Positions 391 through 32,615 of a DNA stretch of 64,000 nucleotides are shown here, one piece after another. A model generated the notes under the pieces. It made no database searches. It worked only from the letters and a program-made list of their open reading frames with translations, and was not told the origin of the DNA. The position numbers and the translations under genes were made by a program. How positions within the stretch are numbered: position 1 is the stretch's first letter; each line of letters starts with the position of its first letter. Source of the stretch: Singulisphaera sp. GP187 (lineage in GTDB: Bacteria > Planctomycetota > GCA-002687715); assembly GCA_945907755.1 (NCBI GenBank), contig CAMDTN010000008.1:1-64000 (forward strand), in the 5' to 3' direction.

Positions 391-1041
391 TTATTGCCGT
401 TCGAAGTTGGTGATGTCGTCCTCGGTGTTGAACTTCATATCCGCACCAGCGGAGATCAGTTGGAATTTGTCGCGCTGATAGAAGCTGCGCGTCTTGGGGT
501 TGCGCCAAGGCACGGCTTTCAGCATCTCTTCAGCGGCGGTGGCGCGCCCGAGGTCGCGGTTCTCCACGATGCCGTAATCCCGATGGTGAAAATAAGCCAC
601 CGGTGTGCCCCAGACATCGACCAGCTCATAAAGCTCGCGGTCGTCGGGGCCGAAGCTGGTTAGAACCGCTTGCGTTCGGTCGGCATCGGTGTTGGTCAGA
701 CTGACGCCCTTCATGCCTTCGATGTCGAACAGGCTGCCGCGCCCGCGCCGGTTGAGGCACAGGATGATGGATTCATTGCCGCAGTTGTCGAGGTTGGTGC
801 GCTGCCCCACTCCGGGGAACTCATCGCTGTCTAACAGCGTGGGCGGATAGTCGCCGTTCTTGGCATCGGTCTCGTAGCTTTCCAAAGCGGCGTCCAATTG
901 CATCAGCACATTCTCCATCAACGACTGATCGCCCGCACGCATCATGCGCGGCAGGCCTATGACCGCCAGCCCACCCAACACTGACAAAATGGCCATCACC
1001 ACCAGCAACTCCACCAAAGAGAATCCAGCGCGACGCTTCAT
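391..1041 (-). CDS. GspG-like major pseudopilin
   Basis: 216 residues. Residues 1-30 are a type III prepilin signal: MKRRAG then FSLVELLVVMAILSVLGGL, with cleavage expected between Gly6 and Phe7 and Glu at +5. The C-terminal half has the GspG hallmarks: a DVWGTPVAYFH segment (family form DPWGNPY) and a terminal ISAGADMKFNTEDDITNFE resembling the calcium-site tail of GspG (SLGADG..GGE..DADI.NW). GspG is the main subunit of the type II secretion pseudopilus, built in the periplasm from the inner membrane. At 216 aa it is longer than the usual ~140 aa because of insertions in the middle. The gene lies 1 nt after the TPR gene and 2 nt before a second pseudopilin. A type IVa minor pilin is the alternative. 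Confidence 0.88.
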   Translation of the reverse strand: MKRRAGFSLVELLVVMAILSVLGGLAVIGLPRMMRAGDQSLMENVLMQLDAALESYETDAKNGDYPPTLLDSDEFPGVGQRTNLDNCGNESIILCLNRRGRGSLFDIEGMKGVSLTNTDADRTQAVLTSFGPDDRELYELVDVWGTPVAYFHHRDYGIVENRDLGRATAAEEMLKAVPWRNPKTRSFYQRDKFQLISAGADMKFNTEDDITNFERQ

Positions 1042-1042
1042 G

Positions 1043-3859
1043 TCATTTCTTCCAAGTCGTGAGAGTCACGCTGTCAGCGGAGAAGGCAACTGGCTTGTCC
1101 ACCGCCGCTTGGCAGAAGATTTGTGCTTCTACTGCGCCGGGCCTGCGGGCCAATCCGGCCACTTCAATATCTGCCATGGCGGGCTGCGCATCCAGTGACA
1201 CGCGCCACAGAGATTTCTGCACATCCACCAGTGCAATGCTGATGCGCCCGTTGCCTTCTGCAGGCCAGAGTGTGCCGGTGTCCGCCCATTCAGTGGGTTT
1301 GCCTTGCACCACCTTGCGCCACATCAGACGCGCTTCGGGAGAGATTGCAACTTGCAAACCGACATGGGCGTACTGCCCACCATCACGCTTCATCAAACCT
1401 GGCCACGGGTCTGGCTCGCGCGACGATTTGTTGAAGGCCATGACGCTCAAGCCCGCGATGACACCGGGCGCTGGCTTCACTTCCAAATCCGCTTCGAACG
1501 ATTGCAACAGTCGCGCGGTGCGTTCTTGCCATGCCACAGTGGGCTGATCGGAAACGCCACCCTGCTTGCCACGGAACACGAGGCGACCGTCGTCAATGGC
1601 GACATTCACGCCGCTCGGACGGCCATAACCGGTACCCACATCTTCCAGCCAGCCGCGCAGCAATTGGCCGCCGGTGCGATTGAACGCGTCGGTCCAAACT
1701 TCCTTGTTCAGGTTCTCTTCCACAGCTGACTGCATGCCCGCAGCCCACGCACCCAACTCGGCCAAGCCTTTGTTCTCTGCCAACAAACGCAAACGCCGCA
1801 GCGCTTCGTCGGTTTGTGCGCGCGCATAGTGGTGCATGGCTGTGGCGGCTTGCACCAAAGGCACACGCGCGACATCCGAGCTCATGTGGCGAATGCTGTC
1901 ATCGGCTTCCGTGAAGCGGCGGCGCTTGACGGAGCTCAGTAGATTGCGGCCAGCAAGCTCTGGATAGTTCGCATCCGCAGCCAACGCGCGCGCATGGAAA
2001 CGCGAGGCTTCCAGCCAACCGCCCAGTTTCATGTGGCAATCGCCAAGGGCCGCCAGCATGTCCGCGTCATTAGGCCGCGCTTCCAACACGCGCAAGTAAG
2101 TTTCGCGTGCTGCCGCATAGTCCCCCAGCAGGAACAAGATTCGCGCGCGCTGCGCCAACGCGTCCATGTCGTGCGGGTCTGCTGCCAAGGCCGCGTCAGC
2201 AGTGCCCAAGGCCGCTGTGGGCTTGCCTGCCTTCTCTTCCAGAATCGCCAACGCCGTGTAGGCCTTGGCGCAAGAAAGTGGGTCCAGTTCTACCGCCAGC
2301 AAGAGCGTTTCCCGCGCAGCGGCCCACTGACCTTTTTGAAACAGCGCTAATCCGTCCAGCAACGCCAAGCGCCCGTCGTAGGGGTTGGCTGCGCGTCCGC
2401 GGTCGATGAACACCTTCGCCGCATCGGCACCACCGCTGAGCAAGGCCAGCACCGCTGCGCCGCTCAAAGCGCGCGCATCCGTCGGGCCTTGGTCCATGGC
2501 GCGATCAAACGCGGCGCGCGCATTGCCTTCGTCGCCGAGGGTCAGCCACGCTTCGCCGAGGAGCACCAGCACTTCGCCAAGTTGCAGTTTGGAGAGGCCG
2601 GTGCCTGTTTCCGCATCGCGGAGCGCAGTCACTGCCGCCTTGGCATCGCCCTCGCGCAGTGCGATGCGAGCCAACCCCAAGTGCGCAAGCGCGCACACCT
2701 GGTCTTTTTCGAGCGCCGCACGGAACGCGCGCTGCGCTTCCGGAAACAGCCCTAAGCGCATCGAAAGCAGCCCATCTCGGGCCAGCAAACCTGCGTCCCC
2801 AGGGTATTCGCTCAGCGCCTTGGCCAGAGCAAGCCTCTCGCCGTCATAGCGCAGCAAGCGTTGCTCGCAGTCTGCCAGCAGGGTTTGCGCGCGCAGCGAG
2901 CCTTGGCCGCGCGTGATCATCGCGTTCAAGTGCGCCGCAGCGGTTGCAGCTTCGCCTGCATCGAACAGCTCGCGCGCCAATGTTTCTTGGGCGGCAATGT
3001 CGTCGGGCTTGGCGTCCAAGCGGCGCAGGTAATAACGGTTCAGCGCATTGGCTGCGAAATCGATGCGTTGCACCTGTGCGCCATGCAGCACTTGCCTCGT
3101 CGGTGGCTTGCCAGCACCACGATCTTCGCGGAACACCATCTGAATGGTTTCCAACTGACGGCGGCGCTCATCTTCCGTGATGGCCGAGTTCCCTCGGATT
3201 TGATCGATCTGGCGCTTCGCCTCGAAACGATCTTGCTTGCGGTCGAGCATGCTGAGCGCGCCCCAAGTTTGTTCGCCCCCTGACCAAACAATGGTGTCCA
3301 TGCCGAGACGGCGTTCTTGCACCGCCTTCTTTTGCTCCACCGCGTTGGTCTCGCGCTTCATGCGCTCTTCGGTGCTCAGGCGCAAGCGTTCGGCGAAAGT
3401 CAGCGCTGCAGGCACCGTCACGCTGTCCAAGTCTGAAGCGGCCGCAGGTGTTTCTGTGGATGCCCCCGCTGGGGCACTGCTGCGTGCCGACGGCGCCGCA
3501 AGATTGATTTTTGAATCTGAAACCAAAGCAAAACGCGCTTTGTCCGCCAGTGCTCCACCGGGCGCGGGCAGCAGCGGCAACCCAGGGTGCGCCAACGGCG
3601 GCAGCGGCGGCGTGGTCATCTCGATGGGCTGCAAGCTCTCGGTTTCCCGTGGGGCTTGATAGATGTTGCGTGCGCCGGGCGCCCAAGCCACATCGTTGTC
3701 GCCAAGAAAGAACCCGCCCAATTCCAGCGCTGCCACAGGATCAGGTCGTGCAGCGCCGCTGCGGCGTGCAGCCGCGGGCGCTTCTTGTGTCCCGCTAGTC
3801 AACCAAGCAATGCCCGCCAGCAGAAGCGCGCCAAAAAAAAGAATTTGCCCCTTGCTCAT
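1043..3859 (-). CDS. Membrane-anchored TPR protein with C-terminal jelly-roll-like domain
   Basis: About 938 residues from the ATG at 3859; a TTG at 3868 is in frame, but the GGAG Shine-Dalgarno is too close to it and better spaced for the ATG. One N-terminal membrane helix (GQILFFGALLLAGIAWLTSG, ~4-23) is followed by a Pro/Ala-rich linker, a charged coiled segment (~165-260) and a long array of TPR-like repeats (~270-660; e.g. AARETYLRVLEARPNDADML). The last ~220 residues are beta-rich (GVNVAIDDGRLVFRGKQGG; SFEADLEVKPAPGVIAGLSV), like a concanavalin/laminin-G-type sandwich. It starts inside the stop region of the PilO-like gene and precedes the pseudopilins, so it probably scaffolds or contacts that secretion machine in the periplasm. 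No enzymatic motif seen. Confidence 0.8.
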   Translation of the reverse strand: MSKGQILFFGALLLAGIAWLTSGTQEAPAAARRSGAARPDPVAALELGGFFLGDNDVAWAPGARNIYQAPRETESLQPIEMTTPPLPPLAHPGLPLLPAPGGALADKARFALVSDSKINLAAPSARSSAPAGASTETPAAASDLDSVTVPAALTFAERLRLSTEERMKRETNAVEQKKAVQERRLGMDTIVWSGGEQTWGALSMLDRKQDRFEAKRQIDQIRGNSAITEDERRRQLETIQMVFREDRGAGKPPTRQVLHGAQVQRIDFAANALNRYYLRRLDAKPDDIAAQETLARELFDAGEAATAAAHLNAMITRGQGSLRAQTLLADCEQRLLRYDGERLALAKALSEYPGDAGLLARDGLLSMRLGLFPEAQRAFRAALEKDQVCALAHLGLARIALREGDAKAAVTALRDAETGTGLSKLQLGEVLVLLGEAWLTLGDEGNARAAFDRAMDQGPTDARALSGAAVLALLSGGADAAKVFIDRGRAANPYDGRLALLDGLALFQKGQWAAARETLLLAVELDPLSCAKAYTALAILEEKAGKPTAALGTADAALAADPHDMDALAQRARILFLLGDYAAARETYLRVLEARPNDADMLAALGDCHMKLGGWLEASRFHARALAADANYPELAGRNLLSSVKRRRFTEADDSIRHMSSDVARVPLVQAATAMHHYARAQTDEALRRLRLLAENKGLAELGAWAAGMQSAVEENLNKEVWTDAFNRTGGQLLRGWLEDVGTGYGRPSGVNVAIDDGRLVFRGKQGGVSDQPTVAWQERTARLLQSFEADLEVKPAPGVIAGLSVMAFNKSSREPDPWPGLMKRDGGQYAHVGLQVAISPEARLMWRKVVQGKPTEWADTGTLWPAEGNGRISIALVDVQKSLWRVSLDAQPAMADIEVAGLARRPGAVEAQIFCQAAVDKPVAFSADSVTLTTWKK

Positions 3860-3864
3860 GGGTT

Positions 3865-4704
3865 TCAACGCTCCTTCGCGGCTTCGCCCGCTTCCACTTC
3901 AAGAGCCGCAAGCACCAAGGTGGCCTGGGTGCGTCCCGCATCGAGAGGGTCCATCCCCCGCGCACTCTTGGGCCCTGAACCTGGCGGTGCATCCAGACTT
4001 CGTTCTGTGCCTTGCGTCAACGCCAAAGCGCGTCCCACAGCGGGGCGTGCCAAGCGTTCGCGCACGGCACCAATGGCCAACGGATGGCCCACCAACACGA
4101 AGGTGACTGGCGTGCGCGCGATAGGCGCCGCAGGTGCGGAATCCTTACGGGCCTTGGGCGCTGGAGTGATCTCAATGCGGTCCACACGCGCAATGCCGCC
4201 TTCCAGCACTTCGGCGTTCACCGCCAGCACGGTGCCCAACATCTGCTTCACCACATCCAAACCGCGCAAGTACCAGTCAATCTCGCGGCGCGTGGTGGGG
4301 AATGCATCGGGCAACCCCAAGGACATGTCCACATGAATGTTGGCCACCGCGCAGCGCTCCAGTTCATTGCGCCGCACCGTGTCGGCCATGCGGTTGTAGT
4401 GCAAGTCCGCGTCATTGATAGAAGGCAGCAGCTTGAAGCCTTCGTCTTGCACGCGATTCAGGCGTTGCAACAGGGCTGTCACTTTTTGCTCGGCTTGCTC
4501 ACGCCCTGCGCGCACTTGTTTCAGCTCGTCCGCGCTCACTTTGAAGCGCTTCTCGTCGTCGCTTGCACGGCGAATATCGGTGCGCGCACGCGAAGTCACA
4601 TCGCCGTAGTGCCCCGCCACCAGCGAATGCACTACGAGGAATGCCACCAGCACCAGCGCAGCTGCAGCGATGGTGCGCTTGTGTTCTTGGAAGAACTCAG
4701 CCAT
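3865..4704 (-). CDS. PilO/GspM-like inner-membrane platform protein
   Basis: 279 residues. One N-terminal membrane helix (AAAALVLVAFLVVHSLVAG, ~12-31) is followed by a coiled coil (~50-95), then an alpha/beta periplasmic region with PAFPTTRREIDWYLRGLDVV-like character typical of PilO/GspM ferredoxin-like folds (a helix followed by strands around IDRIEITP). The tail from ~205 is low-complexity Ala/Pro. PilO/GspM proteins bind PilN/GspL and link the cytoplasmic actin-like protein to the periplasmic secretin. The gene sits 3 nt after the PilM/N fusion and overlaps the TPR gene start region, the standard order PilM-N-O. Assignment rests on topology and synteny more than on a strict sequence motif. 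Confidence 0.7.
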   Translation of the reverse strand: MAEFFQEHKRTIAAAALVLVAFLVVHSLVAGHYGDVTSRARTDIRRASDDEKRFKVSADELKQVRAGREQAEQKVTALLQRLNRVQDEGFKLLPSINDADLHYNRMADTVRRNELERCAVANIHVDMSLGLPDAFPTTRREIDWYLRGLDVVKQMLGTVLAVNAEVLEGGIARVDRIEITPAPKARKDSAPAAPIARTPVTFVLVGHPLAIGAVRERLARPAVGRALALTQGTERSLDAPPGSGPKSARGMDPLDAGRTQATLVLAALEVEAGEAAKER

Positions 4705-4707
4705 GAC

Positions 4708-6390
4708 TCAGTTTCCCCCCGCTGCATCAGTCACAGTTTCTGCCGTCTCTGGGAACAGATCCGCTTCGATCTGGAACCCCAACTTCTTCGAACCTGTCGC
4801 CGCACCCGCGCTCTGCTTGGTGATGCGCACCGCAGCGCCCTTGCGCTGTGTGCGAATGCCTTCGACTATCTGCTGCAAGCCGCGCTCGGATTGCGTGTCC
4901 ACGGACAAAATCTCACCACTCACCGTCAGCACGGTCTTAATCTCTTTGCCCTTCTTGGGGTCGTTATGGTCTTTCAGAAACGGCCCGCGGCGCGCGTCGA
5001 TTTGTTCAATCCACACGCCGTCTGGCGACGCTTGCTGCACCAGCAATGCGCCCAGCGCAAAAGCAAACGCCGTTTCTGTTTCGCCAGCCAGCATCTTTTG
5101 GCGCGCATTCAGCGTGCTCACTTGAGCGAGTTCGACGCGGTATTCCTCGTCGCGCCGCCGTGCCGCTTGTGCTCGGGACTTCGCGCGCGTGGCGTCCAGC
5201 GCCAATGTTTCTGCCTGGGTGCTCATGTCCCACCAAGTCCAACCGAGAAAGAGAACCAAGAACACGCCCGCCGCGTAGCGCCACACGCCCTCGCGCATGA
5301 AGGCTCGCGTCTTCAGAACTTTCTGCGGAGCGAGTTCCACCAAGAAACTCTGCTTGGCGCTGCCGCAAGCGGCCAAACCTAAAGCCACCACGAAACGGCC
5401 CGGGTCTCTCTCGAAAGCGACGCGCTCTTCCTCGGGCAGCTTGGATGTGTCCAAACCACTTTCCGGTTGGAAGCGACTGCACGGAGTGTTCAATGCAGAT
5501 TCGAGGTATGCCGCCAAGCCCTTCAAGCACGCGCCGCCGCCGCTCAAGAGAATGCGCGCGGGCTTCAAGTTGGGGTCTGCCAGTTGTGCACGCGAGAAAG
5601 CCAAGCTGGACTGCAACATGCTGGCCAGCTGCCCCGCTGCGGCGAGCATACTGCTGGACACTCGCTCTTCACGGCCGCTGGCCCATGATCCACGAGCGCG
5701 TGGATCGACATTGCCGCTGGTTTCTTTGGCTTGCTCCGCGTTCTCGTGATCGACGCCCAGGGCGCCGGCCACCGCATCGGTGAAGATGCCGCCGCCTGCG
5801 TTCAGATTGCGTGCGAACAATAGTTCGCCATCTTTCAGCAGCACAACTTCGGTGTTCTTCTCCCCGATGTCCACCAGCATCACGACTTCACCTTCGTGAA
5901 GCGCACCCGCCACCATCCATGTGTTGAACAGTGCGATGCTGGCTGGCATGGCGCAACGCGGTTCGCCCGCAGCAGCGCGCACCGCGGCAAAGCGTGCGTC
6001 CAAGAAATGCTCGCGCACCACTGCCACCAAGACCGTCTCCGTGTCGCGCGTGCCTGCGCCAACAAGGTTGTAATCCGCAGCCAGCGGCGAGCCCGCCTGA
6101 TGCGCCATCTCCTTCACTTCCAAATCCATCAGCAAACGCACGCGCCAAGGTGCCACAGGCGGCACTTGCGTGTAGCGGATGATCACATCCTTGCCCGACA
6201 CGCTGAAGCGCGCACCGGGGGCTTTGCCCAACGCCGTGAGCCCCGCTGTTGCTGCGAGGATTGAATCCTCTTCGCCTTCCGCGCAGGGGATTTCCACTGC
6301 GCGTTGCAATTCCAGCACTGGCCCTCGCTGCACGGCCACCACTGCCCGCACCGTGCGCGAGCCCAGGTCGATTCCAATGAGGCGGGCCAT
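4708..6390 (-). CDS. PilM-PilN fusion protein (GspL-like)
   Basis: 560 residues. The N-terminal ~350 residues are an actin-like ATPase fold of the PilM type: IGIDLGSRTVRAVV (phosphate 1), MLVDIGEKNTEVVLLKDGEL (phosphate 2) and ILLSGGGACLKGLAAYL (adenosine motif). A membrane helix follows at ~370-388 (YAAGVFLVLFLGWTWW), then a coiled coil and a periplasmic PilN-like ferredoxin fold (~440-545; VWIEQIDARRGPF, VSGEILSVDTQSE). PilM and PilN are usually separate proteins; a fusion with this order matches GspL architecture. Its start overlaps the stop of the FHA gene (TGATG) and the PilO-like gene follows by 3 nt. It should couple cytoplasmic signals to the periplasmic platform. A paralogue is at 30929-32554. 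Confidence 0.88.
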   Translation of the reverse strand: MARLIGIDLGSRTVRAVVAVQRGPVLELQRAVEIPCAEGEEDSILAATAGLTALGKAPGARFSVSGKDVIIRYTQVPPVAPWRVRLLMDLEVKEMAHQAGSPLAADYNLVGAGTRDTETVLVAVVREHFLDARFAAVRAAAGEPRCAMPASIALFNTWMVAGALHEGEVVMLVDIGEKNTEVVLLKDGELLFARNLNAGGGIFTDAVAGALGVDHENAEQAKETSGNVDPRARGSWASGREERVSSSMLAAAGQLASMLQSSLAFSRAQLADPNLKPARILLSGGGACLKGLAAYLESALNTPCSRFQPESGLDTSKLPEEERVAFERDPGRFVVALGLAACGSAKQSFLVELAPQKVLKTRAFMREGVWRYAAGVFLVLFLGWTWWDMSTQAETLALDATRAKSRAQAARRRDEEYRVELAQVSTLNARQKMLAGETETAFAFALGALLVQQASPDGVWIEQIDARRGPFLKDHNDPKKGKEIKTVLTVSGEILSVDTQSERGLQQIVEGIRTQRKGAAVRITKQSAGAATGSKKLGFQIEADLFPETAETVTDAAGGN

Positions 6391-8786
6391 CAGCGCACTC
6401 CCTTGCTTGCGATGCGTGTCAGTAGTTGTGCCGCTTCATCCGCGGCGTCTGTGCCGGGGTAGCGCTCCGAAACCGACTTCAGAAACGCAGCGGCCAGCGC
6501 TTCGCGTCCCAGTTCCAAATAATCCTTAGCACGCGCCAACAACGAGTCGGCCCGGGCGCGGCGCAGTGGTTCGTCCACCGCTTCGCGCGCTTGCTGCACG
6601 CGTTCGCGCAACGCCGTCAATTCTTGGCCTTGCACAGTGCCTTGGTAACGCTGCGACTCTGCTTCCAATTGCTCGGCCAAATCCGCTGCCTTGCGCCACT
6701 CGCGGAAGAACAAGGCGTCATCGACGCGCACAATGATTTCGTCGCAGAGCTTGCGGCCCTTCGCCGTGTGTTCTGTCAGCAAGGCTTGCGCCTCGCGCAC
6801 AATGTCGTCGTCGATGGGGAAGCGCTCGAGGATCTGCGCAGCCAAGCGCTGCACTTGCCCGGATTCGCCTTTGCGCGCAGCTTCGCGCGCACTGGCGCGC
6901 ATGGCTGTGGCCGCTGCGAGCTCTGTGTCGAATGCGACCGCCACATTCAGACGCAACTGCGCGTGGCCTTCCGTTCCGATGAACACGCGCGCGCTGCCGC
7001 CCGCCGCATTGGGCGTGTAGCTGAAGGGCAAACGCAACGCCGCACCGGCACCATCGTCGCAACTGATGCGAATTCGGTTGCCACCGACGCCCAGCACAAC
7101 GCTGGTCGCGGCCACTGCGCTGAAAGCCTCGCTCAGGCGGCGGCCCTTGTCACCATCGTTCAGCACCAGAGGCGCGTCACCGCCGGGGAAACTCAGACCA
7201 AGGCCATACGACGCCATCGCCATGTTCGCCGCTGCCACGCTCCAGTGCAGTCCCGCTTCATCAGCAAGCAGTGCTGGGTGCAACATGTCACCAGATTCGT
7301 CACTGGGCACCCACTGCTTGCCATCGATGCGCACAAGGTCCACTGAATCCAAGACCCGCGCGCCCAAGCGACTGACGCGCAAAGCGCCGCTGACGCCTGT
7401 GCGCCCCAAGAAATCGCCAGACTTTGCACCGTGTTCTGCACCTGCAACCGACTCCACCAGCACATCATCGAAACGAACCTCACCGGCACCTTGAACCCCC
7501 AAAACAATCTGCGCCAAGTTGGCGCCTTCGGGGACAACCACGCTTCCTTGCACTTCCCCACTGCTGGCTGCGGCACGCAACAAATCGCGTGCGAACACTG
7601 TGCCGAGGGTGCCGCGGTTCTCTTTGGATTCTTGGCCGAAGCGCACACCCAACAGGGCCTGCGCCTCGCCCGCTGTGCGCACACTCAACTGCCACACACT
7701 GCCACCGGTTACCGGCAGCAGCGCTGCGCAACCCACGAGAGTCATGCCTGAGTCTGAGGCACGACCTACTTGCAACACAGTGCCATTCGAATCTTTCTGC
7801 ACTTCGACATCGCCGGCTTCTTCCGCGTCGAGCTTGGCCCAAAGCGGCGGTTCAGCATCCATGCCGGATTCGAACGAAGCCGCAGCCTCTGGCAGCAGAT
7901 TCGAGCCGCGCTGCACGACACGCGTCTTGCCTTGGTTCGCATTGGGCTCGTAACCCATGAAGAACCACGCACCTGCGCCAGCAACCGCCAATACCGCCAC
8001 CAAACTGATCACGGTCCAGAGCTTCTCGCCTCGTGCCGCCACTGGCTGTGTCAGCGTGAAAGCCGTCTCATCGTTCCACTGAGCTTCAGCCGTAGCCGGC
8101 TCTGCTGCTGTGTCGGCGTGGGCCACCTGCGCCAATTCGGTGAAGAAATCTGCTGCTTCGCCCTTGCCGTAGATGCACAGGGCATCGCCGAATTGCACGC
8201 GTGCGCCGGGCTGCAACACCGCTTCGGCCACTTTGGCGCCATCGACACTGGTGCCGTTGCTGCTGCCAAGATCCCGCACCAATACTTCAGAGCCGCGGCG
8301 CACAACTTCAGCGTGGTCGCCACTGACACCAGTGCGCTTGAGCACCAAGGCATGTCGGGCGTTGCGCCCAACAGTCAAGCGGCCTTCGGGCAACGGCACC
8401 ACTTCGTTCAAGCGGCCTTCGAACGCCAGCACCAAGAAGTGTTTCTCTTCCAGCGAGAGGTCGTCTTCACCCCAAGCAGATTCCTCCATCGCGGGGGCTT
8501 CGTTCCCACCAGCAAGGAAGCGCAGTTGCATGCCGCCGATGCCAAGCACATCACCATCGGCGAGTTCGAACTTGGTCACCCGGCGCTTGTTGACTAGGGT
8601 GCCGTTGCTGGAGCCTTGGTCCTCTACGAACCAAGCGCCCTTCTCTTCAGTGAACTTGCAGTGGACGCGGGAGATCCCGTTCCCATCCAGTGCGACGGCA
8701 TTCTGAGAGGTGCGTCCCAGAGTGTCTCCGCTCTTGAGGATGAACTCGCGGACCGCCTCGCCTTCAATTGTGACGAGTTTGGGCAT
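6390..8786 (-). CDS. Double-FHA transmembrane protein
   Basis: 798 residues. Two forkhead-associated domains lie in the cytoplasmic N-terminus: ~1-95 (TLGRTSQNAV, ISRVHCKF, DQGSSNGTLVNKRRV) and ~115-210 (LTVGRNARHALV, VSGDHAEV, DLGSSNGTSVDGAKV). Both keep the GR, SxxH-type and GSSNGT residues that bind phosphothreonine, although the second has SGDH. One membrane helix follows (~262-282; VISLVAVLAVAGAGAWFFMG), then a large periplasmic part with a beta-sandwich stretch (~300-440, ...VRFDDVLVES) and C-terminal helical repeats (~640-795). It is the first gene of the secretion operon and abuts the PilM/N fusion, suggesting that Ser/Thr phosphorylation is sensed by or transmitted to the machine. 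No kinase lies nearby. Confidence 0.88.
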   Translation of the reverse strand: MPKLVTIEGEAVREFILKSGDTLGRTSQNAVALDGNGISRVHCKFTEEKGAWFVEDQGSSNGTLVNKRRVTKFELADGDVLGIGGMQLRFLAGGNEAPAMEESAWGEDDLSLEEKHFLVLAFEGRLNEVVPLPEGRLTVGRNARHALVLKRTGVSGDHAEVVRRGSEVLVRDLGSSNGTSVDGAKVAEAVLQPGARVQFGDALCIYGKGEAADFFTELAQVAHADTAAEPATAEAQWNDETAFTLTQPVAARGEKLWTVISLVAVLAVAGAGAWFFMGYEPNANQGKTRVVQRGSNLLPEAAASFESGMDAEPPLWAKLDAEEAGDVEVQKDSNGTVLQVGRASDSGMTLVGCAALLPVTGGSVWQLSVRTAGEAQALLGVRFGQESKENRGTLGTVFARDLLRAAASSGEVQGSVVVPEGANLAQIVLGVQGAGEVRFDDVLVESVAGAEHGAKSGDFLGRTGVSGALRVSRLGARVLDSVDLVRIDGKQWVPSDESGDMLHPALLADEAGLHWSVAAANMAMASYGLGLSFPGGDAPLVLNDGDKGRRLSEAFSAVAATSVVLGVGGNRIRISCDDGAGAALRLPFSYTPNAAGGSARVFIGTEGHAQLRLNVAVAFDTELAAATAMRASAREAARKGESGQVQRLAAQILERFPIDDDIVREAQALLTEHTAKGRKLCDEIIVRVDDALFFREWRKAADLAEQLEAESQRYQGTVQGQELTALRERVQQAREAVDEPLRRARADSLLARAKDYLELGREALAAAFLKSVSERYPGTDAADEAAQLLTRIASKGVR

Positions 8787-8972
8787 TGTTTTTTTGGCCG
8801 TGAAAACTGCGAGAAAAGCGGCGACGGAGGGATGTCGCGCGCGCGCGAAACTTGGTTTGACGCGAGCGGATCATACAGCAAGAGAAGGGCAGCGGCCAAA
8901 TCCACAAGCCTTTGATGCGCAGAGGCTTAGCGGCTGCGCGGCTGCGAGCTTCGTGCGACGCCTGCTGGAAAC
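8787..8972 (-). other. Gap between the FHA regulator and the FHA-pil operon
   Basis: 186 bp without a credible gene. The minus strand upstream of 8786 has an A-run (AAAAAAACA) directly before the ATG and no Shine-Dalgarno, which would fit a leaderless or weakly initiated message. I could not find a convincing -35/-10 pair. Confidence 0.4.
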
Positions 8973-8983
8973 TTAGTTTCCAG
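8965..8983. repeat. Perfect inverted repeat spanning the stop codon of the FHA-Fis gene
   Basis: CTGGAAACT T AGTTTCCAG is a 9-bp perfect inverted repeat with one central base. The TAA stop of the upstream regulator (8975-8973) lies at its centre. As RNA it would fold as a 7-bp stem with a 5-nt loop. There is no U-tract after it, so a terminator role is weak; a dimeric repressor site is an alternative. Confidence 0.5.
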
Positions 8984-10805
8984 TGGGCGGGTCTGAACGT
9001 AATCCGAGGCGCCTCAGCATCTTCCTCAATCCGGGCCGCGACAGACCTAACTGCCTTGCAGCCTCGGAGATACTCCCGCCGCACGCCGCCAAAGTGCGCT
9101 CCAAAGTGCGCCGTTCGAGGTCATCCACTGCGTCCTTCAGCGGCAGGGCTTGCTCGCCGATGCACACTTCCACGTCGGAACGGGTGGGGTTTCCGCGAGC
9201 ACGCAGCACCGCAAGGCGTTGCAGCGCCCCCTTCAGTTCCACGATGTTTCCGGGCCAAGTGTGCGCACAAAGTGCGCGTCGAGCTTCTGGCCCAAGGGTG
9301 AAAGGGCTGCCCAAGTCGGCCAGCACTTGGTCGATCAGTTCGGGGAGATCGGCCGCGCGCTGCGCCAAAGGCGGAAGAGTCACGGTCAGCCCCTCCAGGC
9401 GCAGGCGCAGATCCTCCAACAAACGGCTCGCTGCCACCAACTGCAGCAGCGGCAAGGTAGAGCCTGCCAGCAGACGCGCTGCGGGCCTGGCTCCGTCGGC
9501 AAGAGGTGGCTTCCCTTCCGCTTGAATCAGCATGCGAAGCAGAGCCGATTGCGCTTCGGCGCCTAAGTCTTGCAGACCGTCCAAGTACAGACAGCCCGTG
9601 GCGCCGCGCAGTTCTTGCACGACCAAGTCCGCTGGCAGCGAAGCGCAGAGGATTGCAACAAAGGGCGCCTCGCGGCGCGCACTCTGGGCGTGCACCGCAC
9701 GCGCTAAGTATTCCTTCCCGCTGCCGGCAGGGCCCGTGAAAACAACGGGCAAGTCTGTGCCTGCCGCGCGATCGGCCATGCGCAGCGCCGTACGCATGGC
9801 CCGTGAACGCGCTGGGATGTTGGCGAAGTCGTGCCGCAGTGGTTCTTCGCCGCGCACGCGGTCCAGCAGCGCGGTGGCCCGCACGAGGTCGTCACGGCCA
9901 TGCTGCACATCCTCTTCCAAGTCGCGCGAACGCGAGCGCTCTTCAGCGAAGCGTTCGCCGGTTTCCAGCGTGATCACCGCTAACTCAGCGAAGAACGGAA
10001 TCAGCGCAAGGTCGCGATGATCGAAGCCGCCGCGCTGCACGCGGTTGTCCAACCAGAGGGCGCCGCGCAACGCAGTTCCCGGCAGCGGCACACACAACAC
10101 CGAGCGCAATTGCAATGCGTGCACCGAACCCAACCCCGCCAGTTCGTCGTCGGTGCAGGCATCCTCCACCAACAGTGCAAGCCCTTCTTGCAACACACGA
10201 GAGACGATGCCGCGGCTGATACCGGCTTCTGCGGCGGCAATGTCTTCGCCACGCGCGTTGCGCGCCAAGTGCACCGCCGGTGCTCCCGCGCTTTCCAGCA
10301 CCAAGAAACCTCGTTCTGCACGCAACAGCGTGATGGCCGCATCGAGGATGCCTTGCAGCGATTTCTCGCGGTCCAGCCCACGCAACAGCGGCGCCAGCAT
10401 TTCCAACATGCGCTGCAAACGGTGCGCATCTGGGTTGGTGCCAGCAACCACAGGCCGCGCGCGCTCCAGCAGCAATTCCACGGTTTTCATGCCTGGATCG
10501 TCGGCGTCGGGCGCTTTCTCCATGCGCTCGAAAGTCAACACAGCATTGCCGCAAGTCACTCGCTCGCCAGGGCGCACTACAGATTTACTCACCACCTCGC
10601 CTTCGATGCGCGTGCCGTTGCGGCTGTTCAGATCGCGCACGAACAATCTTTGGCCGGTGCGCTCGAATTGGCAGTGCGTGCGTGAGAGGCCGATGTCGTC
10701 GATGACGATGGTGCAGCCGGTGGAGCGCCCCACAGTGATGGTGTCACGCTCGGTGCGGATCACGCGCTCGACTTGGCCGTGCAATACGCGCAAGGTGATG
10801 AGCAT
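8973..10805 (-). CDS. FHA-GAF-AAA+-Fis regulator lacking the GAFTGA loop
   Basis: 610 residues. Domains in order: FHA (~1-95; TVGRSTGCTIV, LSRTHCQF, DLNSRNGTRIEG), GAF (~135-295), AAA+ of the bacterial enhancer-binding type (~330-540) and a Fis-type helix-turn-helix (~565-605; GGSISEAARQLGLSRPGLRK). Walker A is intact (GPAGSGKE, ~355). The Walker B-like strand is CLYLDGLQDL, with Gly in place of the usual catalytic Glu of DE. The GAFTGA sigma-54 contact loop is absent: only ~46 residues separate Walker A and Walker B instead of ~70. It therefore probably binds DNA and a phosphoprotein but is unlikely to remodel sigma-54 holoenzyme. It lies between the TMTC-like gene and the FHA-secretion operon, which it may regulate. 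Confidence 0.88.
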   Translation of the reverse strand: MLITLRVLHGQVERVIRTERDTITVGRSTGCTIVIDDIGLSRTHCQFERTGQRLFVRDLNSRNGTRIEGEVVSKSVVRPGERVTCGNAVLTFERMEKAPDADDPGMKTVELLLERARPVVAGTNPDAHRLQRMLEMLAPLLRGLDREKSLQGILDAAITLLRAERGFLVLESAGAPAVHLARNARGEDIAAAEAGISRGIVSRVLQEGLALLVEDACTDDELAGLGSVHALQLRSVLCVPLPGTALRGALWLDNRVQRGGFDHRDLALIPFFAELAVITLETGERFAEERSRSRDLEEDVQHGRDDLVRATALLDRVRGEEPLRHDFANIPARSRAMRTALRMADRAAGTDLPVVFTGPAGSGKEYLARAVHAQSARREAPFVAILCASLPADLVVQELRGATGCLYLDGLQDLGAEAQSALLRMLIQAEGKPPLADGARPAARLLAGSTLPLLQLVAASRLLEDLRLRLEGLTVTLPPLAQRAADLPELIDQVLADLGSPFTLGPEARRALCAHTWPGNIVELKGALQRLAVLRARGNPTRSDVEVCIGEQALPLKDAVDDLERRTLERTLAACGGSISEAARQLGLSRPGLRKMLRRLGLRSDPPTGN

Positions 10806-10807
10806 GA

Positions 10808-13723
10808 TTAGTGCCCGAGGCGCTCCAACAGCTTCTTCAATCGGGTCACATCTTCTTCGAGTCCGGCATCTGGATGTTCTTCGGCCACACGCAAGAAGCG
10901 TTCGGCGCAGCGCCGCGCTTCATCTGCGTTGCCCTTCACGAAATACAACTGCGCTGCAGCCGCGTTCGCCGCGAGGTGCTTTGGATCAATGGCCAAGGTG
11001 GCTTGCAACGCCACCAATGCCGCACTTGGGTCTTCTGCCGCCAGTTCGATGCGGGCCAGCAGGAAATTCCCAGCAGCCGAGGCCCCATCGACTTTCAGTG
11101 CGCTGCGCGCCAAGGCTTGGGCCTCAGCAATTCTGCCGGCCGCCAGACTCGCTTGCGCGCGCTGCTGCAATTCCAACCCCGTTGTCCGGCGTTCGCGCTC
11201 AGTGACTTCCGCGATATGCCGTCGCGATAAAGACAGCTCGTCCCAATCGCCGCCCAATTCCAAGGCGCGGCGAAAATCTGCCCTCACGCGATCGCGCAAT
11301 TCTTGTTCTCGCTGCACGCGCTCAGCCTCGGGCACAGAGCGCAAGGCCCGCTGCAAATCTGCCAGTGTGCCCAGCCCTCGCGCTTGCAAGAAGCGCGCCA
11401 TGCCGCGCTGCGCATCGCGGTCATTCGCATTGATATCGAGAGCCGCTTGCCAAGCACCTTCAGCAGCTTCCCAGCGCCCCAGCGCAGCGAAGGCGTCGCC
11501 CATGGCCACATGGGTTTCGCAAACATCGGGCAACAAACGCAACGCTTCTTCCGCCGCACGCAAGGCCATGTCCGCCGCAGATGCGCCCAAATGACGGCGC
11601 GATTGCGCCAACAACAAGCTGCCCAGTTCGGTGCGCAACAGCGGCGAATTCGGGTCGACCCTCAGGCCCGCCCGCAGAATCTCTACCGCCTTGCGGTTCT
11701 CCCCCGCGCGTTGCAGCAGTGCGGCAGCCCGCGCGAACAGTGGGATCTCGCGCACATCCAATTCCAGTGCCTTCAGCAAGTCCTGTAACGAACCCGGCAA
11801 GTCGCCACCTTCTTCGCGCAAGCGCGACGACAGCAGCAGCCCATCGCTGCGCGTAGGAAAGCGCGCCAAAAGCTCCTCGACCATGAGTCTCGCCTCGGCA
11901 TAACGCCCCGCGACCCACGGCGCCACCAACAATGCTTCGCCCCGTTCGCGCAACGCGAGTGCAGCCTGCGCCGGGTCTGCGGAAGCCGCTGCTTCGAGCA
12001 ACAGCAACAGCGCTTCTTCCACTCGCTTGCGTGCTTGCGCCACGGCATCGGCATCGGTGTTTGTGGCGACAGCTTGCAGCCCGTCGCGCAGTAACAGGCG
12101 TCCCTGCAGCAGTTTCAATTCTGGGCTGGGGTGGGTGCGCAGCGCAGTGGCGATGGCTTCACGCGCAGCAGCCAATTCACCGGTGGCTATCAAGCCTGCC
12201 GCGTGATTCGCTCGCAACACCGTCAAGTTCAGACCCAATGCACTCACACGTTCACTGTGCTGGTTGACGATGGCCAACGCAGCCGCGTGGTGCGGCAGTG
12301 CTTCGCCCGCTCGGCCAGAGGCCAACAAAACATCGCCCAAGCGCACGTGAGCTCGCAAGGCCAACACCGCCTTGCCGCTGTTTTCCGCCAATGCCAACGA
12401 TTGACGCAACAGGGCCATCCCTTGTTCGCGTTGCGCGGCGCTGGATTCTGCACCCAATAATCCTTCCGCCAAGTGCGCGGGAATCATGGCGTCCTTTGGT
12501 TCTAAAAGCATGGCCGCGCCAAACAACGTCGCATCATCGCGAAACTCCGCTGTGCGCGCGCGGCTCAAGAACAACAACGCGCCTAACGCAGCAACGGCCA
12601 GCGAAGCAGCCAGCCAGCGCGGCAGCCGCAAGCAAGCCCACGCCAGCAGCATGCAGGCTCCAGGCAAGGCCATGCTGGCATAACGGTCGGCATACCAGAG
12701 GCTCGTTGCTGGAAAGACATTGTTGAAAGGCGCCAACGCTGCGGGAAACCACAGCATCAACGCAAGTACCAGCGAGGGCCTGCTGTGACGCAGCCACCAC
12801 GCGACGGCAAGAAGCAGGCAAAGCGCGAGCGCCGCAATGCTTGCCCATTCTGAAAACTGCGGCTCCGCTGCGTGAATGCTGAGGTCGTAGGGCAACAGTG
12901 CGTGCGAGCCATAGCGCAGCAGCGCCGTCGCCCCGAGGTGGCAGCGCTCAAGAAACTCATGCGTGCCGCCTGCCGTGCCTTGGTGGACGGCAATGCTCAT
13001 GTGCAGCGCCGCAGGCAGCGCCGCGGCGATGGTCAGCAACAACAGCGAGCCACGCAACTTTCGCTGCGCTGCGATGCTGCCCTGCGCGCGCAAGGCCATC
13101 CAAGTGAGTGCCGCTAGTGCTGGCGCCACCACCATGCTGCCTTTGGCGAAGGAGCCAACGAACACCAGCACCGCGGCGGCCCATGGCAACCCTCGCGGGA
13201 CGCGCCAACAACGCACACATGCGAGCAGCGCCAAAAGCAACAGCACCAGGCTCACTTGGTCTTTGCGTCCAGAAGCCCATGCAACGGATTCCGCCTGCAG
13301 CGGGTGCAGTGCAAACAACAAAGCCGCTATCAACGCAGCAGCACGGCTCTGCAACATCTGCTCGGCCAGCAGGAACACCAACCACGCCGCCAACAAGTGC
13401 CAACACAGCGACGCGATGTGCACTGCGCACGCGCGGTCGGCGCCCAATGCAGCACTTTGGCCTGCAGCAGCGCCACTGCCCGTGAAAAGCACTAACTCGG
13501 GGAAGTAGGCCAAGTACCACAGCGGCAAGTACGCTTCGTCGCGCACTTCACCGAACAGGGCAATTGCGTTGCTCCAACTCGGCTGCACCAATCGAGGGTT
13601 TTCGACCAGCACTGACTTGTCGTCGTAGGCCAAGAAACCATGGTGCACTGCGCCACCGAAGGCCGCGAAGATGGCTATGCCCAGAGTGACGCACACCAAC
13701 AGATCGCGCCCACTGCGTGTCAT
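10808..13723 (-). CDS. TMTC-like polytopic membrane protein with TPR tail
   Basis: 971 residues from the ATG at 13723, which overlaps the stop of the asparagine synthase gene (ATGA); an upstream in-frame ATG at 13894 would lie inside that gene. The N-terminal ~400 residues hold about 10 hydrophobic helices. The first exoplasmic loop has FLAYDDKSVLVENPRL (~30-45), the acidic signature of GT-C glycosyltransferases of the TMTC/PMT type (family form DD..i..NP.v). The C-terminal ~550 residues are TPR-like repeats (e.g. AVEILRAGLRVDPNSPLLRT). Eukaryotic TMTCs are O-mannosyltransferases; bacterial members with this architecture are uncharacterised, so substrate and activity are open. A second, divergent member is encoded at 48402-50564. 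Confidence 0.8.
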   Translation of the reverse strand: MTRSGRDLLVCVTLGIAIFAAFGGAVHHGFLAYDDKSVLVENPRLVQPSWSNAIALFGEVRDEAYLPLWYLAYFPELVLFTGSGAAAGQSAALGADRACAVHIASLCWHLLAAWLVFLLAEQMLQSRAAALIAALLFALHPLQAESVAWASGRKDQVSLVLLLLALLACVRCWRVPRGLPWAAAVLVFVGSFAKGSMVVAPALAALTWMALRAQGSIAAQRKLRGSLLLLTIAAALPAALHMSIAVHQGTAGGTHEFLERCHLGATALLRYGSHALLPYDLSIHAAEPQFSEWASIAALALCLLLAVAWWLRHSRPSLVLALMLWFPAALAPFNNVFPATSLWYADRYASMALPGACMLLAWACLRLPRWLAASLAVAALGALLFLSRARTAEFRDDATLFGAAMLLEPKDAMIPAHLAEGLLGAESSAAQREQGMALLRQSLALAENSGKAVLALRAHVRLGDVLLASGRAGEALPHHAAALAIVNQHSERVSALGLNLTVLRANHAAGLIATGELAAAREAIATALRTHPSPELKLLQGRLLLRDGLQAVATNTDADAVAQARKRVEEALLLLLEAAASADPAQAALALRERGEALLVAPWVAGRYAEARLMVEELLARFPTRSDGLLLSSRLREEGGDLPGSLQDLLKALELDVREIPLFARAAALLQRAGENRKAVEILRAGLRVDPNSPLLRTELGSLLLAQSRRHLGASAADMALRAAEEALRLLPDVCETHVAMGDAFAALGRWEAAEGAWQAALDINANDRDAQRGMARFLQARGLGTLADLQRALRSVPEAERVQREQELRDRVRADFRRALELGGDWDELSLSRRHIAEVTERERRTTGLELQQRAQASLAAGRIAEAQALARSALKVDGASAAGNFLLARIELAAEDPSAALVALQATLAIDPKHLAANAAAAQLYFVKGNADEARRCAERFLRVAEEHPDAGLEEDVTRLKKLLERLGH

Positions 13724-15417
13724 GGCAGGCAAGCCTCGCGGGTGAACGCGCATGCCAGCAGGAACCACTGTTCGCGTGGAGCAAGTCGGCCGCCATTGAG
13801 CGCGGCGCGCACTTCCGGCCGGAACCCGATGGCTTCCAATTCGCGGCCCACAGATGGGTCCAGCAAAGCGTCGCGCCATGGGCCCGCGCACCACTCGGCG
13901 AGGGGCACCGGAAAGCCCATCTTGTCGCGGCGGCGTGCGGCGGATTCGGGCAACAAATCTGCTGCTGCGGCGCGCAGCAAGGCGCGTGGCGCGTGTTCCG
14001 GGCTGCGTTCCTGCAACGGCACCCGCAGCGCCGCGTGCGCCAGCAGTGGATCGAGCAGCGGCACGCGCCCTTCCATGCCGAAGGCTGCAAAACAGCGGTC
14101 GTCGACTGCCAACAAACCTGGCAACAGCGCGCGCAGCTCGAACGCTTCAAGCTCTGTGGCCAAGTTCGGGCCATCGAGCGGCAACACGGCGCTCGCCTGC
14201 ATCACCGCGGCGGCCACTTCCGTTTCCAAGAGCGGCAACAAGCTGCGGCCACGGAACAGCAATGCTTGCGCCAACGGGCCGGTTGCAGCGGCGAGAGATT
14301 GATAGCCAGCGGCGGGCCGCAAGTGCACACCCGCCGCGCGCTGCTGCGCGAGACGCGTGCGCTCGTAGCCACCGAAAATCTCGTCGCCGCCGGTGCCACT
14401 GAAGACAATGCGACAGCCTTCGCGCGCGAGGGTTTGCGCGAGCACCCACTGGCTGGGCCCGCCGGGCCCTGCATTCGGACCACCGAGCGCGCGCAGTAGC
14501 GGCCGCAACGCAGCCAAGTGTTGCTGCGGCGTGATGCAGACCTCCAGCAGCGGCACAGCGCATTCCCGCGCAACGGCCCGAGCGGCGGCACGCTCGTCGC
14601 AATGCGGATGCTGCGGCCCGAAGTGCCCCACCACCGCCAGCCGAGGCAGCGCTCCCGCCGCACGCAGCAACCCCAACACCAACGAGGAATCGACGCCGCC
14701 GGAGAGCAGCAAGGCTGCATCAGCACTCCGCGGGCGCTGCAGCGCGCCGCTCTGCAGCAAGGCGCTGCGCAAGTCTTCGCTGCCTTCACACTGAAACGAG
14801 CCAGACCGCTGCGTCAGCCCCGAAGGCGTGTGCCGAAAACGCAGCCATGTGCCCGGCGCGACTTCGTTGATGCCTTGCCACAGCGTGGCGCCAGCAGGCT
14901 GGAACTGAAAAGCTAAGAGATGGGCCCAAGCAGCACTGTCGCGCGCTGGCGGGTTGTCGCCGAACAGCGCGACCGCCTCCGACGCCACGGAAACCACGCC
15001 GTCTTCGACGCGCCAGTACAGCGGGCGCACGCCAAACTCATCTCGCGCGATGAGCAGTGAGTCGTCGCGGCGGTCCCATAACGCCAGCGCAAAGGGCCCG
15101 CGCACGCGTGTCAGTGCACGCTCGCCTTCAACGGCCCACAGGTCCGCAAGGCCTTGCAGATCCGAATCCTGTTGCGTTGTGCCGAACAGCATTTCGTGAT
15201 TGAAAATTTCACCGTTGGCCACCAGCGCGATGCTCCCGCAGCGCGACTGCAATGGCATGTCGGCTTCGGCGCCGCCGTGGATGCGCAAACGCGCTGCCCC
15301 GAGACCAACGGAATTGGTGCCGATGCATTTGTGCGAATCTGGGCCGCGATGCGCGATCCGTTGCACCAAGGACTCCAGCACTACGCCGGATCCGAGGACC
15401 GCTGCGATGCCACACAT
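13720..15417 (-). CDS. asnB: Glutamine-hydrolysing asparagine synthase
   Basis: 565 residues. The protein starts MCGIAAVLGSG, so Cys2 becomes the N-terminal nucleophile of a class II glutamine amidotransferase; IAHRGPDS and VANGEIFNHEM are typical of that domain (~1-185). The C-terminal synthetase domain carries the ATP pyrophosphatase loop LLLSGGVDSSLVLGLL (~233-248) and FSGTGGDEIFGGYER (~345). Family members convert aspartate, ATP and glutamine to asparagine; relatives next to exopolysaccharide genes can amidate other substrates. The gene is 4 nt downstream of the HAD hydrolase and overlaps the TMTC-like gene, so the three form one unit. Whether the product is free asparagine or a modified glycan or peptide is not decided by sequence. 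Confidence 0.92.
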   Translation of the reverse strand: MCGIAAVLGSGVVLESLVQRIAHRGPDSHKCIGTNSVGLGAARLRIHGGAEADMPLQSRCGSIALVANGEIFNHEMLFGTTQQDSDLQGLADLWAVEGERALTRVRGPFALALWDRRDDSLLIARDEFGVRPLYWRVEDGVVSVASEAVALFGDNPPARDSAAWAHLLAFQFQPAGATLWQGINEVAPGTWLRFRHTPSGLTQRSGSFQCEGSEDLRSALLQSGALQRPRSADAALLLSGGVDSSLVLGLLRAAGALPRLAVVGHFGPQHPHCDERAAARAVARECAVPLLEVCITPQQHLAALRPLLRALGGPNAGPGGPSQWVLAQTLAREGCRIVFSGTGGDEIFGGYERTRLAQQRAAGVHLRPAAGYQSLAAATGPLAQALLFRGRSLLPLLETEVAAAVMQASAVLPLDGPNLATELEAFELRALLPGLLAVDDRCFAAFGMEGRVPLLDPLLAHAALRVPLQERSPEHAPRALLRAAAADLLPESAARRRDKMGFPVPLAEWCAGPWRDALLDPSVGRELEAIGFRPEVRAALNGGRLAPREQWFLLACAFTREACLP

Positions 15418-18831: not shown

Positions 18832-19044
18832 GGATGCTTCTCCAGATGCGAACAAGTGACTCACCGACGCTATTGCTCGCGCGTGCGACGGCAGGTTTCA
18901 CAGCGCGGCCGTTCCAACTCGGCGACGCGGCCCCGCAGGCGGAGCCACCCCCTTGGGGGCGCGGGATTGTAAGCAGCGATTGCGGATAGCGTCAACCACC
19001 TGCGTCTGCGAACGCAATCCATTGCCGTGCAATAGGTTGCGGAC
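18832..19044 (-). other. Leader and promoter region between the sulfatase and secretin 1 genes
   Basis: 213 bp. Contains the promoter at 18966-18995, a CCCCC-TT-GGGGG hairpin (~18948-18959) at the very 5' end of the predicted transcript, and a leader of about 125 nt. No open frame with a ribosome binding site was found. Confidence 0.5.
18966..18995 (-). promoter_or_regulatory. Sigma-70-type promoter for secretin 1
   Basis: On the minus strand TTGACG (18995-18990), an 18-nt spacer and TACAAT (18971-18966). Both boxes match the consensus in five of six positions. It is the only good match between the sulfatase gene and secretin 1 and would start a transcript near 18959. Confidence 0.6.
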
Positions 19045-28801: not shown

Positions 28802-29085
28802 CGAATTCTCCCTTTTCCGAATCCGGGCACATGGGGCAATCCCACGGGCCACGGGGCGCGGCTTTCTACCAGAAACGGCGCGGGTCCATCAGGGTGCATG
28901 CACCGCTGTTGGACTCGCTGACCGCGTCAGGCTTGATCCACAACTTCATCGTTGCGGGCGCTTTTGAACGCAACTCGTTGCATTGAAAAGGCTTCCGCAC
29001 CGAACCATCTTTTCCAGGGGCACGATTATAGGGGTGGAGCCGTTGCCTGCAATAGCCCGCGCTGCCGTTGGCATTCGTGCCATCT
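28802..29085 (-). other. 284-bp intergenic region with a long leader of secretin 2
   Basis: Holds the promoter at 29025-29052 and a predicted untranslated leader of ~215 nt. A 12-bp perfect palindrome GGTGCATGCACC lies at 28893-28904, and GGAAAAG...CTTTTC arms near 28985-29017 could pair. A 27-codon open frame (28946-28866) has no ribosome binding site. I recognise no known riboswitch class. Confidence 0.45.
29025..29052 (-). promoter_or_regulatory. Sigma-70-type promoter for secretin 2
   Basis: On the minus strand TTGCAG (29052-29047), a 16-nt spacer and a perfect TATAAT (29030-29025). It would start a transcript near 29018, giving secretin 2 its own message in addition to any read-through from the platform genes. 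Confidence 0.6.
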
Positions 29086-32554: not shown

Positions 32555-32615
32555 GGTGTAGTCGGCGCCGCGCAACCGGCCGGCGCAAGATGTTAGTGCT
32601 GCACAGCGTGAAGGG

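Follow-up and report, generated by a model that had tools for sequence, protein, structure and literature searches.

Graded loss of the GAFTGA loop in a regulator, and of the predicted sigma-54 promoter of its neighbouring pilus-type operon, within one order of Planctomycetota

What becomes of an NtrC-type activator, and of the promoter beside it, once the GAFTGA region of its AAA+ domain is gone? The question is raised by a regulator gene in a 64,000-nucleotide stretch of DNA, here called the window, from contig C8 of assembly G000 (2.68 Mb, 97% complete, 94 contigs). We give a probability of about 0.6 to the reading that the protein is a former sigma-54 activator that now regulates a single operon independently of sigma-54, binding ATP and probably being phospho-gated. 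The argument starts from the anatomy of the protein, synteny, graded losses and a kept palindrome, and reasons from these to probable DNA binding, ATP binding, use of sigma-70, phospho-control and the sign of regulation.

Features of the window are collected in Table 1. A sequence-only reading of this DNA had described a protein that starts with an FHA domain and ends in a Fis helix-turn-helix, with Walker A kept, the Walker B glutamate replaced by Gly, and about 25 residues, including GAFTGA, missing between the two motifs. Pfam recovers both ends of the protein (HTH_8, E 7.6e-10), and Walker A (GPAGSGKE) and Walker B (LYLDGLQDL, with DG at the catalytic position) read as described. Alignment with orthologues confirms that the GAFTGA-bearing stretch is absent, but the gap comes to 20 residues rather than about 25. 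The best Sigma54_activat stretch, residues 332-402, corresponds to profile positions 3-73; in the genome search the match falls into two pieces, 3-73 and 94-167, with positions 74-93 absent. The AAA lid spans residues 482-544. The motif table shows Leu in place of both the switch Asn and the first arginine finger, and Val in place of the sensor II Arg; the Walker A Lys and second arginine finger are retained. Motif names follow in part a review (PMC7175178). The loop loss is not due to a frameshift, since the reading frame stays open and G001, the nearest relative at 79% identity, is scrambled at the loop position.

An AlphaFold model of the regulator was built from six sequences (mean pLDDT 75.7, pTM 0.45). 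Despite the missing loop, its AAA+ fold is predicted to be intact (against FleQ, Z 20.4 and rmsd 2.4 over 215 residues), and its predicted FHA fold compares well with OdhI (Z 17.2) and GarA (Z 16.7). FHA domains that bind phosphothreonine carry the hallmark residues Gly-Arg, Ser-Arg-x-His and Asn-x-x-Asn-Gly. In the alignment of the seven orthologues, Gly26-Arg27, Ser41-Arg42, His44, Asn60 and Asn63-Gly64 are invariant. From these residues and from 11 Ser/Thr-kinase domain matches in the genome, which show only that kinases exist, we infer the phospho-dependence that had been proposed for the protein.

Table 1. Coordinates of the regulator, its domains and motifs, the predicted regulatory sites and the neighbouring genes in the window.
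Feature	Position	Strand	Basis or remark
Protein with prepilin N-methylation motif (operon)	391..1041	-	
TPR protein (operon)	1043..3868	-	
279-aa protein at PilN/PilO position (operon)	3865..4704	-	without Pfam match
PilM-like ATPase (operon)	4708..6390	-	
FHA2, gene 1 of operon; two FHA domains, YscD-like	6390..8786	-	in 12/12 genomes of order
Degenerate relic CTGTATGATCCGCTCG, aligned with relatives' -24/-12 promoter	8863..8878	-	score 10.0 of 21.8, not above chance; 104 bp from palindrome
TTGGCC-18-TATGAT, sole consensus sigma-70 match in 8700-9100; overlaps lost -24 element	8870..8899	-	consensus scan
Perfect palindrome CTGGAAACTNAGTTTCCAG across regulator stop codon; predicted upstream activator site	8965..8983	.	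sequence searches
FHA-GAF-AAA+-Fis regulator, 610 aa; loop-less descendant of sigma-54 activator	8973..10805	-	ORF, Pfam, alignment
Fis-type helix-turn-helix (HTH_8), residues 560-599	9009..9128	-	Pfam
AAA+ domain and lid, about residues 329-544	9174..9821	-	Pfam, predicted fold
Walker B LYLDG; Asp retained, catalytic Glu replaced by Gly	9576..9590	-	alignment, motif table
Gly401/Ala402 junction, site of 20 missing residues including GAFTGA loop	9602..9603	-	Pfam, alignment
Walker A GPAGSGKE, retained	9711..9734	-	orthologue alignment, motif table
GAF domain (GAF_2), residues 145-281	9963..10373	-	Pfam
FHA domain, residues 23-84	10554..10739	-	Pfam; predicted fold match to GarA/OdhI FHA domains
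TPR membrane protein, 2-bp gap upstream of regulator; syntenic in relatives	10808..13894	-	
Secretin of same cluster	16219..18864	-	

Twelve genomes of the order (Planctomycetota), with three genomes of the genus, were compared; a search at class level returned the same 12. A full-length orthologue of the regulator is present in seven of them (E 1e-105 or better). A contig scan found eight loci, of which five are orthologues from genomes already counted and three are partial or distant. The seven orthologues form one clade (SH-aLRT 97) in a 33-protein tree made by a quick method. A tree of three operon proteins, with a midpoint root and eight of nine inner branches starred, resolves the genomes as (G006,(G008,G010)), (G009,(G007,G011)) and ((G004,G005),(G003,(G002,(G000,G001)))).

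The f2 genomes have loops reading GAFSGA (G006), GAYSGL (G008) and GAFSGG (G010); all three have Walker B DE and the sensor II Arg, and the switch residue is Asn in G008 and G010 and Asp in G006. The regulator of G004 has the loop GAYTGA with Walker B DN, switch Ala and sensor II Leu, and that of G002 has GSFSGA with DG, Leu and Val. In G001 the loop is scrambled, Walker B, switch and sensor II again read DG, Leu and Val, and the first finger is Asp. The window regulator shares these three states, with the loop deleted and Leu at the first finger. The clade is thus one of graded decay, in which loop, catalytic residues and predicted promoter (described below) are lost by degrees; the states follow the tree and so amount to few independent events. 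Loop-bearing orthologues support the descent from a sigma-54 activator that had been proposed. The nearest relative likewise lacks a recognisable loop, but a scrambled stretch stands there rather than a deletion. The regulator, palindrome and sigma-54 site are all absent from G003, G007, G009 and G011, where the operon is present, and in G003 (L106, 6765-6924) the regulator gene is missing from between the TPR protein and FHA2. For G005, a genome 76% complete, the palindrome and sigma-54 site are present and no regulator orthologue was found.

The same motifs were tabulated across activators more widely, from 60 loci of which 58 gave a protein (L041 and L069 gave none) and 55 were distinct. 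A recognisable G[AS][FY][ST] loop occurs in 53 of the 55, the exceptions being the window regulator and its nearest relative in G001. These two loop-less proteins are also the only two without the first arginine finger. The sensor II Arg is absent from four, all in the clade of the window regulator, and the Walker A Lys is present in all 55. The Walker B Glu is absent from eight of the 55, so that its loss is not special by itself. Several other unusual activators appear in the table. Another FHA-GAF activator, on a long branch of the tree (L010/L064 on C20 of the window's own genome, L073 on C4 of G001), has a GAFTGA or GAYTGA loop, Walker B DG and switch Ser, without the catalytic Glu. L005 (own genome, C4, 34932-35429) has the loop GAFTDA, switch Ser and Walker B DD, and L025, an FHA-type activator from G026, has GAFSGA with Walker B DR.

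The window's own genome holds 11 other strong Sigma54_activat matches, and the ten that were read (all but that on C25) have a GAFTGA-type loop, in one case GAFTDA. A check for rpoN found it present and complete, with AID, CBD and DBD Pfam domains. A search for strict -24/-12 sites gives 12 in G000 and 0 in a reversed control. Sigma-54 therefore appears to be in use in this genome, and among the activators read only the window regulator appears to have left it.

The neighbouring operon, with its FHA, PilM-like and prepilin-motif proteins, is of the kind found in type IV pilus or type II secretion systems. Within the limits set by contig ends, the conserved order is asnB, TPR protein, regulator, FHA2, PilM, the protein at the PilN position, TPR protein and prepilin; G004 has the regulator at the end of one contig and the operon on another. 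Secretion-system genes are reported to be enriched under predicted sigma-54 promoters in classes that include Planctomycetia (PMC12316311). The TPR reading frame upstream of the regulator, taken from its first GTG (10808-15417), overlaps asnB by 175 bp, and its true start is probably later. A second secretin and a second PilM-like gene occur at 26192-32677, giving the window two pilus- or secretion-type sets.

The predicted activator site has no second match at three or fewer mismatches in the window (expected 0.00), and genome searches find one perfect copy in G000 and one in G001. Its core, read off these same sequences, scores 11/11 in seven of the eight genomes that have the palindrome and 10/11 in G006; where regulator, palindrome and promoter are all missing, as in four genomes, it reaches 7/11, which is what chance would give. 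Only G001 and the window have the palindrome in perfect form, better than in any loop-bearing relative. All 18 of its aligned bases match between these two genomes, compared with 104 of 176 across the remainder of the gap (Fisher 0.0002); the right, non-coding arm alone gives 7/7 (P 0.04). Across genomes it lies 104-122 bp upstream of the aligned -24/-12 site. In G008 a Transposase_31 gene (YhgA-like; L046:4983-6047) sits between regulator and palindrome and the palindrome stays with the promoter, as expected of an enhancer. The conserved helix-turn-helix and the perfect palindrome retained between regulator and operon support the continued DNA binding that had been predicted for the protein. 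A role as terminator was rejected: the scan does not list the palindrome, which in G008, G004 and G005 stays with the promoter, away from the regulator end. A wide regulon was rejected as well, two-mismatch copies elsewhere being about as frequent as in a reversed-pattern control.

Scores for sigma-54 and sigma-70 sites come from hand-weighted matrices on consensus sequences and are predictions only. Six genomes have GG-N10-GC sites upstream of FHA2, 110-122 bp past the palindrome (start to start): TGGTATGTTCTTTGCT in G010, TGGTATGTTCTTTGCA in G008 and AGGTATAAGGTTTGCG in G006, all f2, then CGGTATGCTGTTTGCG in G004, CGGTATGATGCTTGCG in G005 and CGGTAAGCTGTTTGCG in G002. The predicted promoters of G006, G008, G010, G004 and G002 score 17.9-21.0 of 21.8, and the best site between -150 and -60 in each of the six genomes has a shuffle P of 0 to 0.024. 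The aligned site of G001, CGGTAAGATTCCAGCG, 114 bp from the palindrome, scores 14.9 of 21.8, not above chance; it retains GG-N10-GC, and residual use of sigma-54 could persist in that genome. Between -150 and -60 the window has nothing better than a site scoring 15.4 (shuffle P 0.29). One site out of alignment, TCGCACGAAGCTCGCA, reaches 17.3 (shuffle P 0.11), but it has no GG and is 24 bp away from the palindrome. The window thus has no predicted sigma-54 promoter at the aligned place, and that of G001 is weakened. The proposal that the regulator no longer acts on sigma-54 gains support here, as the predicted promoter of the neighbouring operon decays in the same two genomes that lack the loop while rpoN and other activators are intact.

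A consensus scan for sigma-70 finds one site in positions 8700-9100 of the window, where shuffles give 0.1. The corresponding 401-base regions of G001, G002, G003, G004, G005, G006, G008 and G010 yield no site, so that one region in nine has a match. By weighted score, P is 0.005 in the window, 0.04 at the same place in G001, 0.015 elsewhere in the region of G003, and 0.025 in G005, where TATGAT falls within the sigma-54 site. Since the scan finds no site in G001 or G003, the window provides most of the case for the proposed switch to sigma-70. It is the weakest step of our reading, and the consensus may not be the preference of this organism.

On the reading we favour, an ancestral regulator bound at the palindrome would have opened a -24/-12 promoter with sigma-54 polymerase, dedicated to the FHA/PilM/prepilin operon. 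In family f1 the ATP-hydrolysis residues (switch Asn, Walker B Glu and sensor II Arg) would have been lost first, loop and promoter staying. PspF variants E108Q, E108D and E108A are defective in hydrolysis, and their loop still engages and remodels sigma-54 polymerase on ATP binding, E108A less well and with poor opening of duplex DNA (PMC4132715). G004 and G002, without the catalytic Glu yet with loop and promoter, may keep both in a similar way, through ATP binding without a canonical active site, which suggests that catalytic loss alone need not end sigma-54 action. PspF is a model for these two states with a difference: its mutants were made in the laboratory, and G002 and G004 have lost the switch Asn and the sensor II Arg besides. 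On the branch leading to G001 and the window, the loop would then have broken and the promoter weakened, until in the window the loop was deleted and the promoter gone. The window regulator most likely still assembles on the palindrome, ATP-bound, non-hydrolysing and gated by FHA and GAF, because Walker A, the second arginine finger, FHA, GAF, the helix-turn-helix and the palindrome are all retained. It would now modulate a sigma-70-type promoter that arose at the old -24 element. The full stepwise series, in which hydrolysis is lost first with loop and promoter persisting on ATP binding, both then decay together, a -10 grows from the old -24 and the enhancer becomes a perfect palindrome, is proposed tentatively, at somewhat less than even odds.

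With the site some 110 bp upstream of the predicted start, activation seems likelier than repression. A palindrome-bound repressor or anti-activator that limits read-through or transcription of the operon would be in keeping with the overlap of palindrome and regulator stop codon, and Caulobacter NtrC, likewise loop-less, represses some sigma-70 genes (PMC10274813). For simple repression, however, a site about 75 bp upstream of the predicted -35 is far, and the palindrome of G008 has stayed with its promoter past the inserted transposase gene like an enhancer; we regard this account as unlikely.

Slightly less probable still is that regulator and sigma-54 promoter are relics on their way out, the operon being constitutive from a sigma-70 promoter, as may hold in G003. 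The operon does persist without regulator, palindrome or promoter in G003 and the three f3 genomes, and the AAA+ part after the loop evolves fast between the window and G001, with 44 of 75 residues identical (58.7%) against 436 of 533 elsewhere (Fisher 1.7e-5). In the loop-bearing pair G010/G008 the corresponding figures are 73.1% and 71.3% (P 0.79). However, the frame is open in both G000 and G001, the palindrome is better than in any loop-bearing relative, and FHA, GAF and helix-turn-helix are 87.5%, 84.0% and 88.2% identical, with dN/dS of about 0.06-0.10. The per-domain values were set aside, as dS is saturated in several parts; for the whole gene dN/dS against G001 is 0.10, a rough value given the high dS. 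From the domain identities set against the AAA+ part after the loop, and from the G010/G008 contrast, the regulator is judged to be subject to purifying selection, the constraint on its motor having been relaxed or redirected.

There is little to recommend a third account, in which the regulator still works on sigma-54 in mixed rings with an intact activator and supplies only DNA binding and sensing. Its Walker A and second arginine finger, the rpoN and loop-bearing activators of the genome, and the tolerance of PspF rings for hydrolysis-defective alternate subunits in DNA remodelling (PMC4132715) would all allow such rings, but two adjacent functional loops are needed (PMC4132715) and no -24/-12 promoter is found beside the palindrome in the window. 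That the deletion is an artefact of a metagenome-type assembly in 94 contigs is the least probable account, since the loss is in-frame, the nearest relative also has no recognisable loop, and promoter and first arginine finger are lost in step with the loop. The nearest relative likewise makes an alternative contact loop or a sequencing error unlikely.

Our preferred reading, a sigma-54-independent regulator, has known counterparts. The NtrC proteins of Rhodobacter capsulatus and Caulobacter have the GAFTGA loop deleted and work at sigma-70 promoters, and in R. capsulatus this requires ATP binding, not hydrolysis (PMC10274813). The window regulator likewise is NtrC-type with a loop-removing deletion. 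Those proteins, however, are two-component nitrogen regulators; in the window regulator the sensors are FHA and GAF domains, the Walker B Glu and sensor II Arg are missing too, and the gene stands at a pilus-type operon. TyrR, DhaR, HupR, VpsR and YplP are activators with a defective GAFTGA, the link to sigma-54 having been lost several times, and TyrR, DhaR and HupR are stated to be sigma-70 dependent (PMC3162934). The window regulator resembles them in its descent from sigma-54 activators and its defective GAFTGA region. The FHA domain has 0 occurrences in the main text of that paper, and the part cited describes no set of orthologues in which promoter decay runs in parallel. Neisseria pilE, a type IV pilus gene, has a sigma-54 promoter sequence beside a sigma-70 promoter, with the activator Npa truncated in N. 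meningitidis, and so resembles the window, where a predicted sigma-70 site overlaps the relic of a sigma-54 one; in Neisseria, however, rpoN itself is damaged (PMC6755734). Here rpoN is intact, and only regulator and promoter have changed. FHA-domain enhancer-binding proteins of Myxococcus are reportedly the subject of a 2005 study by Jelsbak and colleagues; they share the FHA domain but by its title belong to a sigma-54 regulon.

Literature searches, judged from listings and the first lines of abstracts, found no earlier report of such an ordered series of regulator and promoter. Loop-less activators are known, and the window regulator, with its GAFTGA region deleted and otherwise NtrC-type, is one of them; as far as the searches show, what is new is the domain architecture, the phylum, and the ordered series in which protein and promoter change together. 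A Pfam Sigma54_activat match over-calls sigma-54 regulators. Activators without GAFTGA have been known mostly as isolated end products, whereas a single order here shows regulator, enhancer and promoter at several stages. G002 and G004, natural activators with loop and promoter but without the Walker B Glu, bear on whether ATP binding alone drives sigma-54 remodelling. The order of losses would make the dismantling or conversion of sigma-54 control testable with natural pairs of protein and promoter.
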